Assembly: GCA_913055695.1 (NCBI GenBank)
Contig: CAJXKF010000002.1
Span: 1-64,000 of the forward strand
Direction of reading: 5' to 3'
Length of the DNA stretch: 64,000 nt
Source of the DNA: an uncultured Methylophaga sp.
Lineage (GTDB): Bacteria > Pseudomonadota > Gammaproteobacteria > Nitrosococcales > Methylophagaceae
The number at the start of each line of letters is the position of its first letter. Within the stretch, counting starts at the first letter, position 1. Positions 10,232 through 63,865 of the stretch are shown piece after piece. The notes under the pieces are model-generated. The model did not search any database, was not told where the DNA came from, and saw nothing but the letters and a program-made list of their open reading frames with translations. The position numbers were made by a program, and so were the translations under genes.

Positions 10232-10426
10232 CAGAGGCACAGAGAGGGGCATAGCGCTTTTAGAATCATCCGCAGATTACCAGTTAGGAAAGACAGCATC
10301 AGGACACAACTGAAAAGTCATGTTGCCACACAATTTACTTTGGTGGACCACATTTAATCTGTGAAAATCAGCGAAATCTGCGGATAGCTTTTTATTCCCT
10401 CTGTGCTCTCTGTGCCTCTGTGGTTG
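10232..10426. repeat. Dispersed palindromic repeat, copy 1
   Basis: Nested inverted modules occupy the gap between ald and the YdjM-like gene. Left arm: CAGAGGCACAGAGA (10232-10245), then ATCCGCAGATTA (10268-10279). Right arm: TAATCTGTG..AATCTGCGGAT (10355-10385), then CTCTCTGTGCCTCTGTGGTT (ending 10426). The arms are complementary in mirror order. No coding sequence is present. Confidence 0.75.
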
Positions 10427-10430
10427 CTCG

Positions 10431-11453
10431 TTATTGATGTAACGCCGGCCCGAAATCAAACTGAACCGCCGGATTCCAGATCCGCTGCCAGACCCAGCGA
10501 ATACCCTGTTCGCGGTTGGTTTCCATTCTGACCTGATTGGGTATGGCGGGACTCAGCCCATGGCCGTTATCCTCAGCCATACTGAATCGAAAGAAGTAAG
10601 CCGGCTCCATACCCATTCTCAGATCCGTCGCAATAATCTGCTTGCCCTGTTTTTCAAGCTTGAACAGACCATTAGTAAACCAGTTGATGCGTTTGAAGGC
10701 GGGTAGGGTTTGTGTTGCTGCAATCAGATCACCGCCGCGATCATAGCGATGGAAGGTCATTTTCTCACTATCATCAAGCAGGGAGCGGAAGCCCTCATAA
10801 TAAAAATCATCATTCACGACGACAATGCGCCACAGCAGCGTATTGAATGCTGTCGCTGAGACCTGCATATGACTGTATTCGATATTCTGCTCTGCAAGTG
10901 TCCGTTCAGCCTGCTGCACAACCCACTGCTGCGCGCCGAAGCCCCAAAGCAGATACAGACAACTGAAAGCGAAGCCATAACGCATGATTGTGTCACTGCG
11001 TTTTCGTTCCGGCCAGAGCAGCACAGCCAGAAAACCGGCCAGTAAGGCGGCTGAATAGACAGGGTCGATAATAAACACACTGCCACCCGAAACGGGCGGT
11101 GGCATAAAAGGCCAGAACAACTGAGTGCCATAGACAGTTAAGGCATCCAGACCTGCATGGGTTACCAGGGCGAGCCAGATCAACAGCCACCAGGTCGCAA
11201 ACTCGAATGTTTTATCAAATCGATGAAGCAGCACAGCAATAAACGGGGCCGCAAGCGTATGAACCAGCCAGGAATGAGTCCAGCTGCGGTGAAACGTCAT
11301 CGAGTCGAGGTCATTCTCGTAAGGGATAAATACGTCGAGGTCCGGCAGTATGGCGATGCCTGCCCCCCATAGCATGGCTTTTCTGCGGGAATGCTTCCCG
11401 GCCACGGCATAGCCGACAGCGCCGCCCAGCAGGGCCTGAGTAATGGTATCCAT
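10431..11453 (-). CDS. YdjM-like metal-dependent hydrolase, inner membrane
   Basis: The 340-aa protein begins MDTITQALLGGAVGYA and has the DUF457/YdjM pattern: a short N-terminal segment, DLDVFIP, the His-rich FHRSWTHS (about residues 54-61) and THAGLDALTVYGTQLFWPF (about 97-115), which place His and Asp residues for a metal. About four hydrophobic helices lie in the first 190 residues, followed by a soluble C-terminal region of about 150 residues. E. coli YdjM is annotated as a membrane-bound metal-dependent hydrolase of unknown substrate and is part of the SOS response; no LexA box is apparent here. It stands alone on this strand. Confidence 0.8.
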   Translation of the reverse strand: MDTITQALLGGAVGYAVAGKHSRRKAMLWGAGIAILPDLDVFIPYENDLDSMTFHRSWTHSWLVHTLAAPFIAVLLHRFDKTFEFATWWLLIWLALVTHAGLDALTVYGTQLFWPFMPPPVSGGSVFIIDPVYSAALLAGFLAVLLWPERKRSDTIMRYGFAFSCLYLLWGFGAQQWVVQQAERTLAEQNIEYSHMQVSATAFNTLLWRIVVVNDDFYYEGFRSLLDDSEKMTFHRYDRGGDLIAATQTLPAFKRINWFTNGLFKLEKQGKQIIATDLRMGMEPAYFFRFSMAEDNGHGLSPAIPNQVRMETNREQGIRWVWQRIWNPAVQFDFGPALHQ

Positions 11454-13205: not shown

Positions 13206-13333
13206 TTCACCCCAGCCCTCTCCCAGAGTGAGGGGTCGGTAATGTTTGCCTGAAAGCTCAGGGCTATCACTTCCTCCTTTGAGGGGAAGGTTAGGATGAA
13301 TGAGCAATCGTTCTATACCCACCCCAGCCCTCT
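13206..13333. repeat. CCCTCTCCC/GAGGG-type dispersed repeat
   Basis: Directly after the TPR gene stop lies CACCCCAGCCCTCTCCC followed by GAGTGAGGGG, then CTTCCTCCTTTGAGGGGAAGG and another CCACCCCAGCCCTCT. These resemble the repeats around the DUF559 pseudogene at 43.9-44.5 kb. No gene is seen in the gap 13201-13393 apart from the start region of the next gene. Confidence 0.55.
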
Positions 13334-13393
13334 GCTACAATCATCGGGCGGCCAATATTCGCGATTACAGCAAATCACAACAAGGACTGATTC

Positions 13394-15815: not shown

Positions 15816-16275
15816 GTAATCACCATAATTCAATGCAAATTATAGGGCAATATATGGTAGATTTAGCATTGCCTTGACTCATATCTACAGAGCCTCTATT
15901 TGACAACTGCTTTTATGATTACTGGCGACGCGCAAAGCTTCTATCAAATGTTTCAAAAGAATTTGAGGCATGGCTCGTTTACCAATATTCGAGATATTGG
16001 ATCAACCGCAACACCCTATTGTCCGGGCTAATCATTGCTCGCTCACACTCTCAGATATGATGAATATCAGAATAAATATCTGTCCGCAGATTTCGCGGGT
16101 TTTCACAGATTAAAAATGGGGAGATTACAGCTGAACTGAGTCCATTTGTAGCGACATCACAAATCAGTTATGGGCTGGTTTTGCCTTTAATGATTTAATC
16201 TGCGTCCATCTGCGTAATCTGCGGATGTCTCTAAAAAACTCTGTGCTTTCTGAGCCTCTGTGGTTCAATCCTGAA
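15816..16275. other. Intergenic region between pilA and metG
   Basis: About 460 bases separate the pilA terminator from the end of metG. The first 260 bases are AT-rich with no frame, hairpin or RNA gene that I can recognise. The remainder is copy 2 of the dispersed palindromic repeat. Confidence 0.5.
16083..16265. repeat. Dispersed palindromic repeat, copy 2
   Basis: Left module TCCGCAGATTTCGCGGG..TTCACAGATTA (16083-16112) faces TTTAATCTGCG..TAATCTGCGGAT (16194-16226), followed by CTCTGTGCTTTCTGAGCCTC to 16265. The outer left CACAGAG arm is missing in this copy. Confidence 0.7.
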
Positions 16276-18309: not shown

Positions 18310-18784
18310 GGTGGGACCGTGTTTTCGCGATGGGAAAAACGACAAAAGATACCAGAAATCGCGTTCTGGCACCATGTAAGCAACCAACGCGATTATGGCG
18401 GATAAACCACAGAAGCACAGAGGTCACTGAGAAATAATTTTTGCATGGTAAGCTCCCGGCTTTGATGAGCTTGATCTGAATCTACCGGCATGCTCAGCAT
18501 GGCTTCTTAACTTATTGTCTGGATTGCTTCACTACGTTGGCAATGACGTGCGGGTGTTCGATGGATAAAGCACTAACCCGGAACTAACTTAAACCTTTGA
18601 CCAAAAATTCATCGAAACCTTTCTACGATTGAAAATCAAAGAGGCAAACGTTAATGGGGCTAATCTCTGTGGACTCTGTGCTTTTGTGGTGAATTATAAT
18701 CCAGAGCTATTGAAAGTTGCCTGGCTTTAGTCTAGATTGAGCTAAGTAACTCTTATATAAGACTTGCAGTTTGTGAGGGATTTG
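18310..18784. other. Intergenic region upstream of metG and of the sdh operon
   Basis: A 475-base gap between divergent genes, mostly filled by copy 3 of the dispersed repeat (18404-18690). The last 90 bases are AT-rich (AACTCTTATATAAGACTTGC) and probably hold the promoter for the TPR-sdh operon; a TATATA-like -10 lies near 18752. Confidence 0.45.
18404..18690. repeat. Dispersed palindromic repeat, copy 3
   Basis: Left arm AAACCACAGAAGCACAGAGG (18404-18423), central module with GGATTGCTTC and GGCAATGACG (18515-18548), right arm ending CTCTGTGCTTTTGTGGT (18665-18690). The arms are complementary to each other, and the central module matches those at 7225, 32709 and 38431. Confidence 0.7.
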
Positions 18785-32667: not shown

Positions 32668-32675
32668 TAAACGTC

Positions 32676-32819
32676 AAACCACAGAGGCACAGAGAACACA
32701 GAGAGTTTGTCATTACGAGGCCGGCGGCCGAAGCAATCCAGTCCCAATCCGGGAAAGGTTCTTTACCTTCAAAGTGTGGCCGTTACATTTTCCTCTGTGA
32801 ACTCTGTGCCTCTGTGGTT
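32676..32819. repeat. Dispersed palindromic repeat, copy 4
   Basis: Left arm AACCACAGAGGCACAGAGAA (within 32676-32705), central module GTCATTACGAGG..GAAGCAATCCA (32709-32740), right arm CCTCTGTGAACTCTGTGCCTC to 32819. The outer arms are near-perfect complements. It splits the polyamine genes, lying 8 bp after one stop and 17 bp before the next start. Confidence 0.8.
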
Positions 32820-32836
32820 AGAAACTAGGTTACTCA

Positions 32837-34877: not shown

Positions 34878-35181
34878 GCAATGATTGAGTTATCCGCAGA
34901 TGACACGGATTGCCGGAGATTTACGTAAAAACTTAATTTGAAATCTTAGGAAATGAGTTAACGCATGCCATAACAGTCAGGGCATTGGGCAGGGGTGCTA
35001 ACCAATGCTGAGCGCCTGCGAAAGAAACCTTTTATTAATCTGTGCTAATCAGCGAAATCTGCGGATAAAAGTTTTTAATCAAACTCACTCTGTTCGTCTC
35101 AGCCAACAATCAAAATTTATGCTTTTCATTGAAGCGTTTACGGGCTAAAATCCGCCGTTTTTTCTGTGCGGAATTTTGACC
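34878..35181. other. Intergenic region between speB and the NTF2-GNAT-nitrilase trio
   Basis: The 304-base gap is largely copy 5 of the dispersed repeat. The last 110 bases are AT-rich and could hold the promoter of the downstream trio. No RNA gene or terminator hairpin is seen. Confidence 0.5.
34890..35067. repeat. Dispersed palindromic repeat, copy 5
   Basis: Left module TTATCCGCAGATGACACGGA (34890-34911) and right module TTAATCTGTGCTAATCAGCG..AATCTGCGGATA (35035-35067) are inverted copies. The CACAGAG arms are absent. Confidence 0.65.
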
Positions 35182-38334: not shown

Positions 38335-38663
38335 TATTTTGCTAATCCGCAGATTTCGCTGATTGAATTTTAATCGAGGAAAAACACTGAAATAGAAAAC
38401 CACAGAGACACAGAAGGCAGAGATATTTTTGTGATGCGAGACCGCAGGCGCTGGCAATACAGCCCCCAGCCGGGAATAGATCCATTTAACTTTGGATATT
38501 CCCACGACTGACAATATTTGTCTCTGTGCCCTCAGTGCCTTTGTGGTTCTATTTAATAATCTGCGATAATCCGCGTCATCTTCGGACAAAGATAAATGAT
38601 TTCAGTCAAGTCGGAAATTAACGTTATCATTACCCTTTTTAAGCAAGGCTAAGCGGCTCAACT
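38335..38663. other. Intergenic region between apbC and dcd
   Basis: This 329-base gap is almost entirely copy 6 of the dispersed repeat, the most complete one. The last 80 bases hold the presumed dcd promoter. Confidence 0.5.
38343..38581. repeat. Dispersed palindromic repeat, copy 6 (most complete)
   Basis: Modules appear in the order TAATCCGCAGATTTCGCTGA (38343-38364), CCACAGAGACACAGA (38396-38423), GTGATGCGAGACC..GGCAATAC (38431-38460), CTCTGTGCCCTCAGTGCC..TTTGTGGTT (38521-38548), and TAATCTGCGATAATCCGCG (38554-38581). The outer two pairs are inverted relative to each other, giving a nested palindrome. Confidence 0.8.
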
Positions 38664-43928: not shown

Positions 43929-43950
43929 GTTTTTGTTTTAGCGCTTGCAT

Positions 43951-43989
43951 CCCTCCATCCCAGCCTTCCCCCGCAAGGGGGGAAGGAGT
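43951..43989. repeat. Direct repeat flanking the DUF559 pseudogene, left copy
   Basis: Thirty-nine bases beginning CCCTCCATCCCAGCCTTCCC and ending GGAAGGAGT match the copy at 44415-44453 at 34 of 39 positions, in the same orientation. Internally CTTCCCCCGC..GGGGGGAAG folds into a hairpin. Confidence 0.75.
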
Positions 43990-44016
43990 CAGAAGCATGC
44001 TAGTGTATATATTATT

Positions 44017-44053
44017 CCCTCTCCCCTGGTGGGAGAGGGTTAGGGTGAGGGGG
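44017..44053. repeat. Hairpin repeat CCCTCTCCC/GGGAGAGGG
   Basis: A perfect 9-bp stem with a 5-base loop (CTGGT) followed by TTAGGGTGAGGGGG. It covers the last codons and stop of the DUF559 pseudogene. Related sequence lies at 13206-13235. Confidence 0.7.
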
Positions 44054-44379
44054 CTAAATGATTCAAAATCACCTCCAAAACAGCATCAATATCACCCAGC
44101 ACCTGATGATTCCAGAATCGAATCACTACAAACCCCTGCTGTGAGATAGGCGCTTCGCTTATCATCGTAAGACTTATTCTGCAGATGCTGGCCACCATCA
44201 ATTTCGATCACCAACCGCTGCTCCAGGCAGACAAAATCCACGATATAACTACCCAGGATAAATTGACGTCTGAATTTGGCGTTCAATAACTGTCGATTTC
44301 TGATCCTGCGCCAGAGAGTTTGCTCTGCATCAGTCATATTTCGCCGAAGTTGGCGGGCTCGGTGTTGTAGTTCATCCAT
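44040..44379 (-). pseudogene. DUF559 (Vsr-like) endonuclease, frameshifted
   Basis: Reading from ATG 44379, the protein shows the DUF559 pattern (RQLRRNMTDAEQTLWRRIRNRQL, FRRQFILGSYIVDFVCLEQRLVIEIDGGQH), quoted here in part. The expected family ending is missing in this frame. In the next frame, however, it continues as FVVIRFWNHQVLGDIDAVLEVI to a stop at 44040, the normal DUF559 C-terminus. The shift coincides with a run of four C (44133-44136 on the plus strand); one base fewer would restore the frame. The gene lies between two 39-bp direct repeats. It could be a pseudogene, a phase-variable frame or a sequencing error in a homopolymer. Confidence 0.82.
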
Positions 44380-44414
44380 GAACTTTGGCTCCTTGCTTGT
44401 GGTTGATTTGGGGT

Positions 44415-44453
44415 CCCCCCATCCCAACCTTGCCCCACAAGGAGGGAAGGAGT
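44415..44453. repeat. Direct repeat flanking the DUF559 pseudogene, right copy
   Basis: CCCCCCATCCCAACCTTGCC to GGAAGGAGT, matching 43951-43989 at 34 of 39 positions in the same orientation. Confidence 0.75.
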
Positions 44454-44493
44454 TAGATCCCATGTCATCAGATGTTTAAGGTGCGGGGAACAG

Positions 44494-63457: not shown

Positions 63458-63865
63458 ATGAAATTTCTCAACAATCAAAATATGACATTCCGTAAAACTA
63501 CTCTTGCTTTAGGCGTACTGTTTGCCCTGGGTAGTGGTGCTGCAGCTGCAACAACCTTTGCTACTGCTGATACCAACGGAAACGGAAAAATTTCCAAGGA
63601 TGAGTATTATGGTTATGTAGGTGATGTTGGCATCTATGGTGATTGGGATCTCAATGACGACGGTCTGTTAGATGAAGATGAATGGACCGATGTCGATTAT
63701 AGCTACGATTATGACTATGACACCTGGGATCTCAATGACGATGGTTATCTGGACGATGATGAAGTCTACGTCGGAACCTTCGATACCTTTGACGTCGATG
63801 ATGACACCTACCTGGATAATGATGAATGGGATGATGCCGGCGATGAAGGCTGGTTTGATGTCTAA
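63458..63865 (+). CDS. Secreted four-EF-hand protein with lanmodulin-like loop spacing
   Basis: The 135-aa protein has a signal peptide (KTTLALGVLFALGSGAAAA, about residues 13-31) and four 12-residue EF-hand loops: DTNGNGKISKDE (38-49), DLNDDGLLDEDE (64-75), DLNDDGYLDDDE (91-102) and DVDDDTYLDNDE (112-123). The gaps between loops are 14, 15 and 9 residues, shorter than in classical calmodulin-type pairs (about 24) and close to lanmodulin (12-13). Loops 2-4 have Asp at position 9, as lanmodulin does; the proline at position 2 of lanmodulin is absent. The region between loops is Asp/Tyr-rich. It is very acidic. It may bind calcium or lanthanide in the periplasm. A strong ribosome site (AAGGAG) and a strong terminator flank it. 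Confidence 0.88.
   Translation: MKFLNNQNMTFRKTTLALGVLFALGSGAAAATTFATADTNGNGKISKDEYYGYVGDVGIYGDWDLNDDGLLDEDEWTDVDYSYDYDYDTWDLNDDGYLDDDEVYVGTFDTFDVDDDTYLDNDEWDDAGDEGWFDV

Follow-up and report, generated by a model that had tools for sequence, protein, structure and literature searches.

The window analysed here, a 64,000-nucleotide stretch of DNA from an uncultured Methylophaga sp., carries a broken nuclease gene set among short repeats, and the question raised by this locus is whether gene and repeats together form a mobile element. The sequence-only reading had described a frameshifted DUF559 endonuclease gene between two 39-bp direct repeats, with a further hairpin repeat over its stop, as a small cassette in which a homing-type nuclease is accompanied by flanking repeats of its own. 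In a profile search, PF04480 (DUF559) positions 3-80 matched one minus-strand frame (E 2e-30, 105.3 bits) and positions 78-108 a second minus-strand frame (E 5.6e-7, 29.8 bits), both above the curated cut-off of 20.6 bits, so that the frameshifted gene was recovered as described. It is the only DUF559 gene in the window genome. The identity of the direct repeats (43951-43989 and 44415-44453) was reproduced at 34/39, their extended version being 44 bp long and 86% identical, and a hairpin repeat (repeat B in Table 1) does span the stop codon of the C-terminal frame. However, the direct repeats do not form the two ends of the cassette, as had been supposed. The inner bracket of the gene is the inverted pair made up of repeats B and A', and repeat A lies outside it. 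The similar repeats noticed near 13206-13333 are of the same kind, in degenerate form.

Table 1. Positions in the window of the DUF559 gene, the repeats associated with it and a second repeat family.
Feature	Coordinates	Strand	Remarks
DUF559 (PF04480) Vsr/EDxHD-fold nuclease gene	44040..44379	-	Profile matches in two frames; intact orthologue in sister genome G003
DUF559 gene landmarks	ATG 44377-44379; frameshift near 44143; stop 44040-44042 (C-terminal frame)	-	
Repeat B	44017..44053	+	9-bp pyrimidine-first hairpin, then G-rich third strand, tail facing gene; motif equals E. coli TM type A
Repeat A'	44414..44457	+	Degenerate hairpin, C-rich leader facing gene; inner bracket at gene 5' end
Repeat A	43950..43993	+	Extra copy beyond inner bracket; direct repeat of A'
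Degenerate gene-less copies	13206..13351		Same repeat type as the window cassette
Second family (CTCTGTG type)	10348-10432, 16061-16265, 18402-18440, 18661-18691, 32670-32822, 34890-35087, 38515-38588		Also at L225

Repeat B consists, in order, of a pyrimidine arm, a loop, a purine arm, a short linker and a purine third strand, which is the architecture of the TM/PIT/BoxC repeats considered below, and the hairpin is also present in repeats A and A', where the leader is less regular. Folding of the window repeats covered the hairpin only, and the triplex in repeat B is predicted from the motif. Elsewhere in the window genome, an A-B pair without a gene (L038) and lone CCCTCTCCC hairpins are present. 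The 9-mer CCCTCTCCC by itself was not enriched in the window, with 7 matches at up to one mismatch versus 10.4 expected, and the bare 9-mer count was dropped as uninformative.

In the sister genome G003 this site is occupied by the same cassette; the DUF559 frame is intact there, and the RDD neighbour is 97% identical. Compared with G003, the window sequence shows a two-base length difference near the frame break, some bases off the C-run, and the C-runs themselves are equal in length, which rules out the one-base shift in the C-run that had been read from the window. The window copy is best described as a decayed element, dead or dying.

The cassette is flanked by two convergent genes, DUF2835 and RDD. 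The site was compared across 30 loci (L003-L032), in 16 of which both neighbours were in view; the cassette was present in two (the window and G003), a short intergenic stretch in 11 and a longer unrelated stretch in three. No repeat was seen at any of the 14 cassette-less loci with both neighbours in view, and the cassette and its repeats hence arrived or left together. An empty site retaining a single resident repeat had been anticipated in relatives; the empty sites without a repeat, which that reading had itself named as refuting, are evidence against homing into a resident repeat here. EDxHD homing endonucleases invade cognate sites, which they cut when these are unoccupied; a repeat-bearing site of this kind was absent from the empty relatives.

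DUF559 genes are generally bracketed by TM-type repeats. That they are often embedded in such repeats had been stated for other genomes, and a survey of 80 DUF559 loci from the GTDB collection (the best 80 of 572 confirmed), drawn from about ten phyla, agrees with that statement. These loci include 47 from Pseudomonadota, 10 from Chloroflexota, 10 from Thermodesulfobacteriota, 3 from Planctomycetota, 2 from Myxococcota, 4 from other phyla and 4 unassigned. A hairpin was scored if it was perfect, pyrimidine-first, at least 8 bp and no more than 300 bp from DUF559, and purine-first hairpins served as the control. Among these best 80 of 572, a hairpin was found upstream at 58 loci, downstream at 52, on both sides at 45 and on either side at 65, versus two for the purine-first control, and it is this hairpin architecture next to DUF559 that exceeds chance. 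Hairpin density at the same best 80 was ~9 per kb within 60 bp of DUF559 and 0.05-0.09 per kb beyond 1 kb. Relaxing the criteria to one mismatch and a distance of 450 bp gave 67 positive loci among the best 80; each of the remaining 13, viewed by eye and outside the scoring, has a comparable repeat that departs from the criteria, at one end or both, by a longer loop or some flaw. The usual order in this best-80 set is a hairpin with its tail inward, the gene, and a hairpin with its leader inward, the inner upstream hairpin having its tail facing the gene at 43/60 loci and the inner downstream hairpin its leader facing the gene at 36/56.

The two ends of a locus also match each other, and terminal inverted repeats, as known from classical insertion sequences, are thus present at DUF559 loci. 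For 78 of the best 80 of 572 loci (two were too short and were left out), the upstream flank was compared with the reverse complement of the downstream flank, giving a mean local score of 26.6 versus 12.1 for permuted pairs, for which the maximum of 10,000 permutations was 15.2. A score of at least 20 was obtained for 47/78 loci and for 0/69 control pairs taken 1 kb out. In G330, each of eight DUF559 genes has its own end type, and in seven of the eight the highest match is with the own 3' end. As judged from 62 loci with a CTCTCC or CTCCCC stem, stem type tracks the nuclease tree, with 13 changes versus a mean of 20.7 and a minimum of 16 in 300 shuffles, and the two types are mixed inside the alpha, beta and gamma classes; this result is taken as supporting evidence only, because the nuclease tree is short and of low resolution.

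In build, and nearly letter for letter, repeat B equals the TM type A motif described by Holder et al. (2015, Table 1; PMC4666352), earlier named PIT or BoxC; inverted pairs, and copies that vary between strains, occur in both. According to the accessible text of that paper, this intrastrand-triplex motif is linked to genome instability, no promoter or terminator activity is reported for the E. coli motif in its summary, and mobility-providing activities were never found near the E. coli copies, leaving their spread unexplained. Whereas Holder et al. drew no link to a mobility gene in that text, in the present case a nuclease gene lies between the repeats. In E. coli K-12, a copy of the motif, by position number 9 in the PMC4666352 table, adjoins ycjD, which is annotated as DUF559, and ycjD with its repeat, used as a query, was at least 80% covered in 3,333 of 5,426 E. 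coli genomes. No clean empty ycjD site was found among the strains examined. The entire fabI-sapF interval of W619 is an efflux operon, with ycjD not annotated there, and the fabI side begins the same operon in GPEC102, FDAARGOS_1373 and ET350; in the strains examined, an efflux operon thus takes the place of ycjD between fabI and sapF (L092, L093-L096, L101), a swap that PMC12817139 describes as loss of eefRABCD. The gene-less TM pairs of E. coli are present, absent, shortened or inverted depending on the strain. As an example, F9792 has the hrpB-mrcB pair of MG1655 (L182, L191) in inverted form, three of the strains examined lack it, and in one it shows an internal deletion. A link between DUF559 and TM/PIT/BoxC was not found in the accessible literature, including the available text of PMC12907096, PMC12308824, PMC9403480, PMC3733652, PMC3943268, PMC1189080 and PMC12817139; subscription papers were mostly outside this coverage, and an earlier notice is possible.

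The number of hairpins in a genome follows the presence of the gene. In a first sample of 274 genomes from the class of the window organism, with CCTCYCC taken as the hairpin and kinship ignored, at least five hairpins were found in 42 of the 56 genomes in which DUF559 is full-length, 6 of 28 with a weak or partial match and 29 of 190 with none, the medians being 17.5, 1 and 0, respectively, while the purine-first control reached five in only 2, 3 and 3 genomes. A second sample comprised 107 new genomes from the phylum, after removal of 13 among 120 drawn genomes that the first sample already contained. Here, again with kinship ignored, the corresponding numbers were 19/20, 6/12 and 15/75, with medians of 78, 3.5 and 1, and the control reached five in 3, 4 and 12 genomes. 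Within one genus, G203 has four DUF559 genes and 152 hairpins, and G394 has none of either. Counter-cases exist on both sides, as at least 10 hairpins occur without any DUF559 match in 16/190 genomes and fewer than five with the gene in 14/56. Genomes G086, G132, G311, G121 and G084 have 31-101 hairpins and no DUF559 match, for which a lost nuclease, assembly gaps or another partner may account. The co-occurrence of gene and repeats across bacteria suggests that the gene helps to spread the repeats. The REP transposase family (PF01797) was tested as the true partner and not supported, the odds ratio for hairpin load being 2.3 versus 16.7 for DUF559.

Movement of such an element is evident in one genome, G071, in which three copies of an element of ~0.5 kb lie on different contigs with differing flanks and are 98% identical over 534 bp (L199/L200) and 405 bp (L066/L199). 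The element has inverted ends of ~75 bp with the hairpin and third strand inside them, and its sole gene is DUF559, which fills it; no known transposase is encoded. Direct repeats of ~10 bp were recognised by eye at the borders, exact at two copies and with one mismatch at the third, and that at L199 was recovered independently in the target-duplication comparison. When G071 was searched with the element, neither a longer element with the same ends nor a gene-less copy of the full ends came up. The G071 element resembles a classical insertion sequence in its terminal inverted repeats and differs in having DUF559 instead of a known transposase. The ~10-bp repeats at its three copies are candidates for a target-site duplication; a general one was not found over 82 loci (own mean 4.04 vs 3.96 for cross comparisons).

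Recent within-genome copies of DUF559 were found only in G071 and not in G203, G175, G163, G060, G120, G330, G353 or G373. A match between L202 and L203 of G175 was discarded as a second copy, the two being overlapping stretches of one place. The DUF559 genes of G330, G353 and G373 share no DNA match of at least 100 bp, and no recent within-genome amplification is therefore seen there. Among the 100 of 152 hairpins of G203 that were listed, 18 gaps of at most 150 bp separate neighbours versus 0.5 for random placement, and the sole gap of 301-900 bp contains DUF559. DUF559 is also commonly situated inside long open frames, with matches of at least 98 bits in frames of 323-1,218 codons at 14 places. 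At L072, L082, L168 and L172 the cassette lies in frame within another gene, with the repeats translated as protein; by reading of the translations, L168 and L172 have it inside the same zinc-peptidase-like gene and L082 inside a bioF-like gene.

DUF559 proteins are often called Vsr-like. A predicted structure of the relative L102 (pLDDT 89.9, 49-row alignment) has as its nearest structure 3hrl, a gonococcal structural-genomics protein called endonuclease-like, and as the next distinct structures the homing endonuclease I-Bth0305I (3r3p; TM-score 0.67/0.78) and Vsr (1vsr; Foldseek E 6e-3), and the sequence profile by itself recovers 3hrl and I-Bth0305I (E 4.5e-4 for the latter). The EDxHD homing endonucleases have conserved E, D, H and D residues (PMC3943268), and candidates for these, E60, D62, H66 and D73, are invariant in 49 DUF559 proteins. 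DUF559 is thus like the EDxHD homing endonucleases in sequence profile and fold, and unlike them in being bracketed by inverted hairpins and in consisting of ~115 residues, all catalytic domain, with the extended DNA-binding region of that family absent; an intron or intein did not come to notice. In the available text, PMC9403480 assigns a DUF559 gene to the EDxHD family, PMC1189080 relates YcjD to Vsr, and PMC12907096 argues that the Caulobacter DUF559 protein VsrA is a mismatch-repair enzyme. DUF559 shares its fold with the Vsr mismatch-repair endonuclease and differs from it in having, at the loci seen here, the repeat as its constant companion. For a role in anti-phage defence, just a weak partial PADLOC match to DpdF was obtained, and this role was set aside. 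The earlier picture of a small cassette holds in outline, given the general association with repeats and a fold near I-Bth0305I and Vsr; its details, namely the ends, the C-run and the resident repeat, do not.

We lean towards the reading that the locus represents a very small mobile element that is moved by its Vsr-fold DUF559 nuclease, with TM/PIT/BoxC repeats as its ends and as its gene-less derivatives. Such an element would consist of one nuclease gene of the Vsr/EDxHD fold (DUF559) between two inverted TM/PIT/BoxC-type hairpin repeats. Its hairpin-plus-third-strand ends would be recognised by the nuclease, probably in an extruded or single-stranded state of the repeat, and be cut or nicked there; the freed or copied unit would then be inserted elsewhere. 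Inverted repeat pairs minus the gene would be non-autonomous derivatives and would account for the dispersed TM/PIT/BoxC repeats. The association, the matched inverted ends, the correlation across genomes, the fold and the multi-copy mobility in G071 are results, from which it is inferred that the nuclease would act on the repeat by binding and cutting and would thereby cause the movement, with the ends joined by transposition or by homing. Counting against this reading are the absence of a general target-site duplication, the counter-case genomes, the lack of recent amplification in G330, G353 and G373, the mismatch-repair role argued for VsrA, and the exchange of ycjD with an efflux operon in E. 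coli.

Homing proper, in which the nuclease would cut resident gene-less repeats and its gene would be copied in via homologous recombination, so that only repeat-holding sites are invaded, is in keeping with the fold of I-Bth0305I and with the abundance of gene-less inverted pairs such as L038 of the window genome. It appears unlikely, given the 14 gene-less relatives without a repeat at the window site, and the G071 copies have full inverted ends in different flanks, those ends never being found gene-less in that genome. It is rather improbable that the nuclease is a passenger with a job elsewhere, e.g. in mismatch repair or defence, on a repeat unit whose movement is due to another transposase or to recombination of the host between repeats. 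This alternative gains from VsrA, which PMC12907096 ties to cytosine methylation in Caulobacter, from the ~10-bp direct repeats of G071, which resemble ordinary transposition, and from the internal deletions and inversion in E. coli, which fit plain inter-repeat recombination. Against it, hairpin load follows DUF559 and not the REP transposase by the odds ratios given above, and seven of ten genomes with DUF559 and no Y1 transposase match still have at least five hairpins; no larger element bearing the same ends was found in G071, and stem type tracks the nuclease tree. Stable, GC-rich hairpins, one of which covers the stop codon in the window, might also be transcription terminators or insulators that stand around a common small gene by chance. 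This is very improbable, as the hairpins are equally common on the upstream and the downstream side of the gene (58 and 52 of the best 80 of 572 loci) and are rare at neighbouring genes, and the match between the ends extends past the hairpin; the summary in PMC4666352 likewise reports neither activity, promoter or terminator, for the E. coli motif.

Compared with the REPIN/RAYT system, an element moved by DUF559 would be similar in having a nuclease gene beside short palindromes and in the dispersed inverted pairs without a gene, as in G203 and E. coli. It is different in its nuclease, the DUF559 fold being unrelated, and the Y1 HUH transposase (PF01797) of that system is not supported as the partner here, since hairpin load follows DUF559. 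The ends of the window repeats were not seen to have a GTAG/CGTC tag.

If the favoured reading is true, the widespread DUF559 family, so far without an assigned function, gains a role, and the known mobile elements come to include one based on the fold of a repair nuclease. Were DUF559 the source of TM/PIT/BoxC repeats, which are known from E. coli and many further bacteria, catalogued in >260 genomes and without a known mobility gene according to the accessible text of PMC4666352, this question on bacterial repeats would become testable in E. coli K-12 through ycjD. A wider proposal is put forward tentatively, namely that DUF559 elements may constitute an unrecognised class of autonomous transposon, found in some ten phyla, in which a stand-alone Vsr-fold nuclease reads hairpin/triplex ends, TM/PIT/BoxC repeats are the gene-less derivatives and the PDDEXK_3 family follows the same plan.

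The last point concerns a second dispersed repeat family in the window, CTCTGTG...CCTCTGTGGTT with AATCTGCG-type partners. Its CTCTGTG part lies on both sides of a PDDEXK_3 (PF13366, GxxExxY) gene in L225 (1451-1488 and 1894-1932), and this gene, at G000:C5:178659-179009, is the only one of its family in the genome. The arrangement looks like the nuclease-plus-repeat plan of DUF559, and small PD-(D/E)XK nucleases accompanied by dispersed repeats of their own may hence be a general kind. Short tandem repeats are present at both ends of the window, at 1-217 and 63644-63763, with GCCAGA, GCCGAA and GATGAC-rich units.
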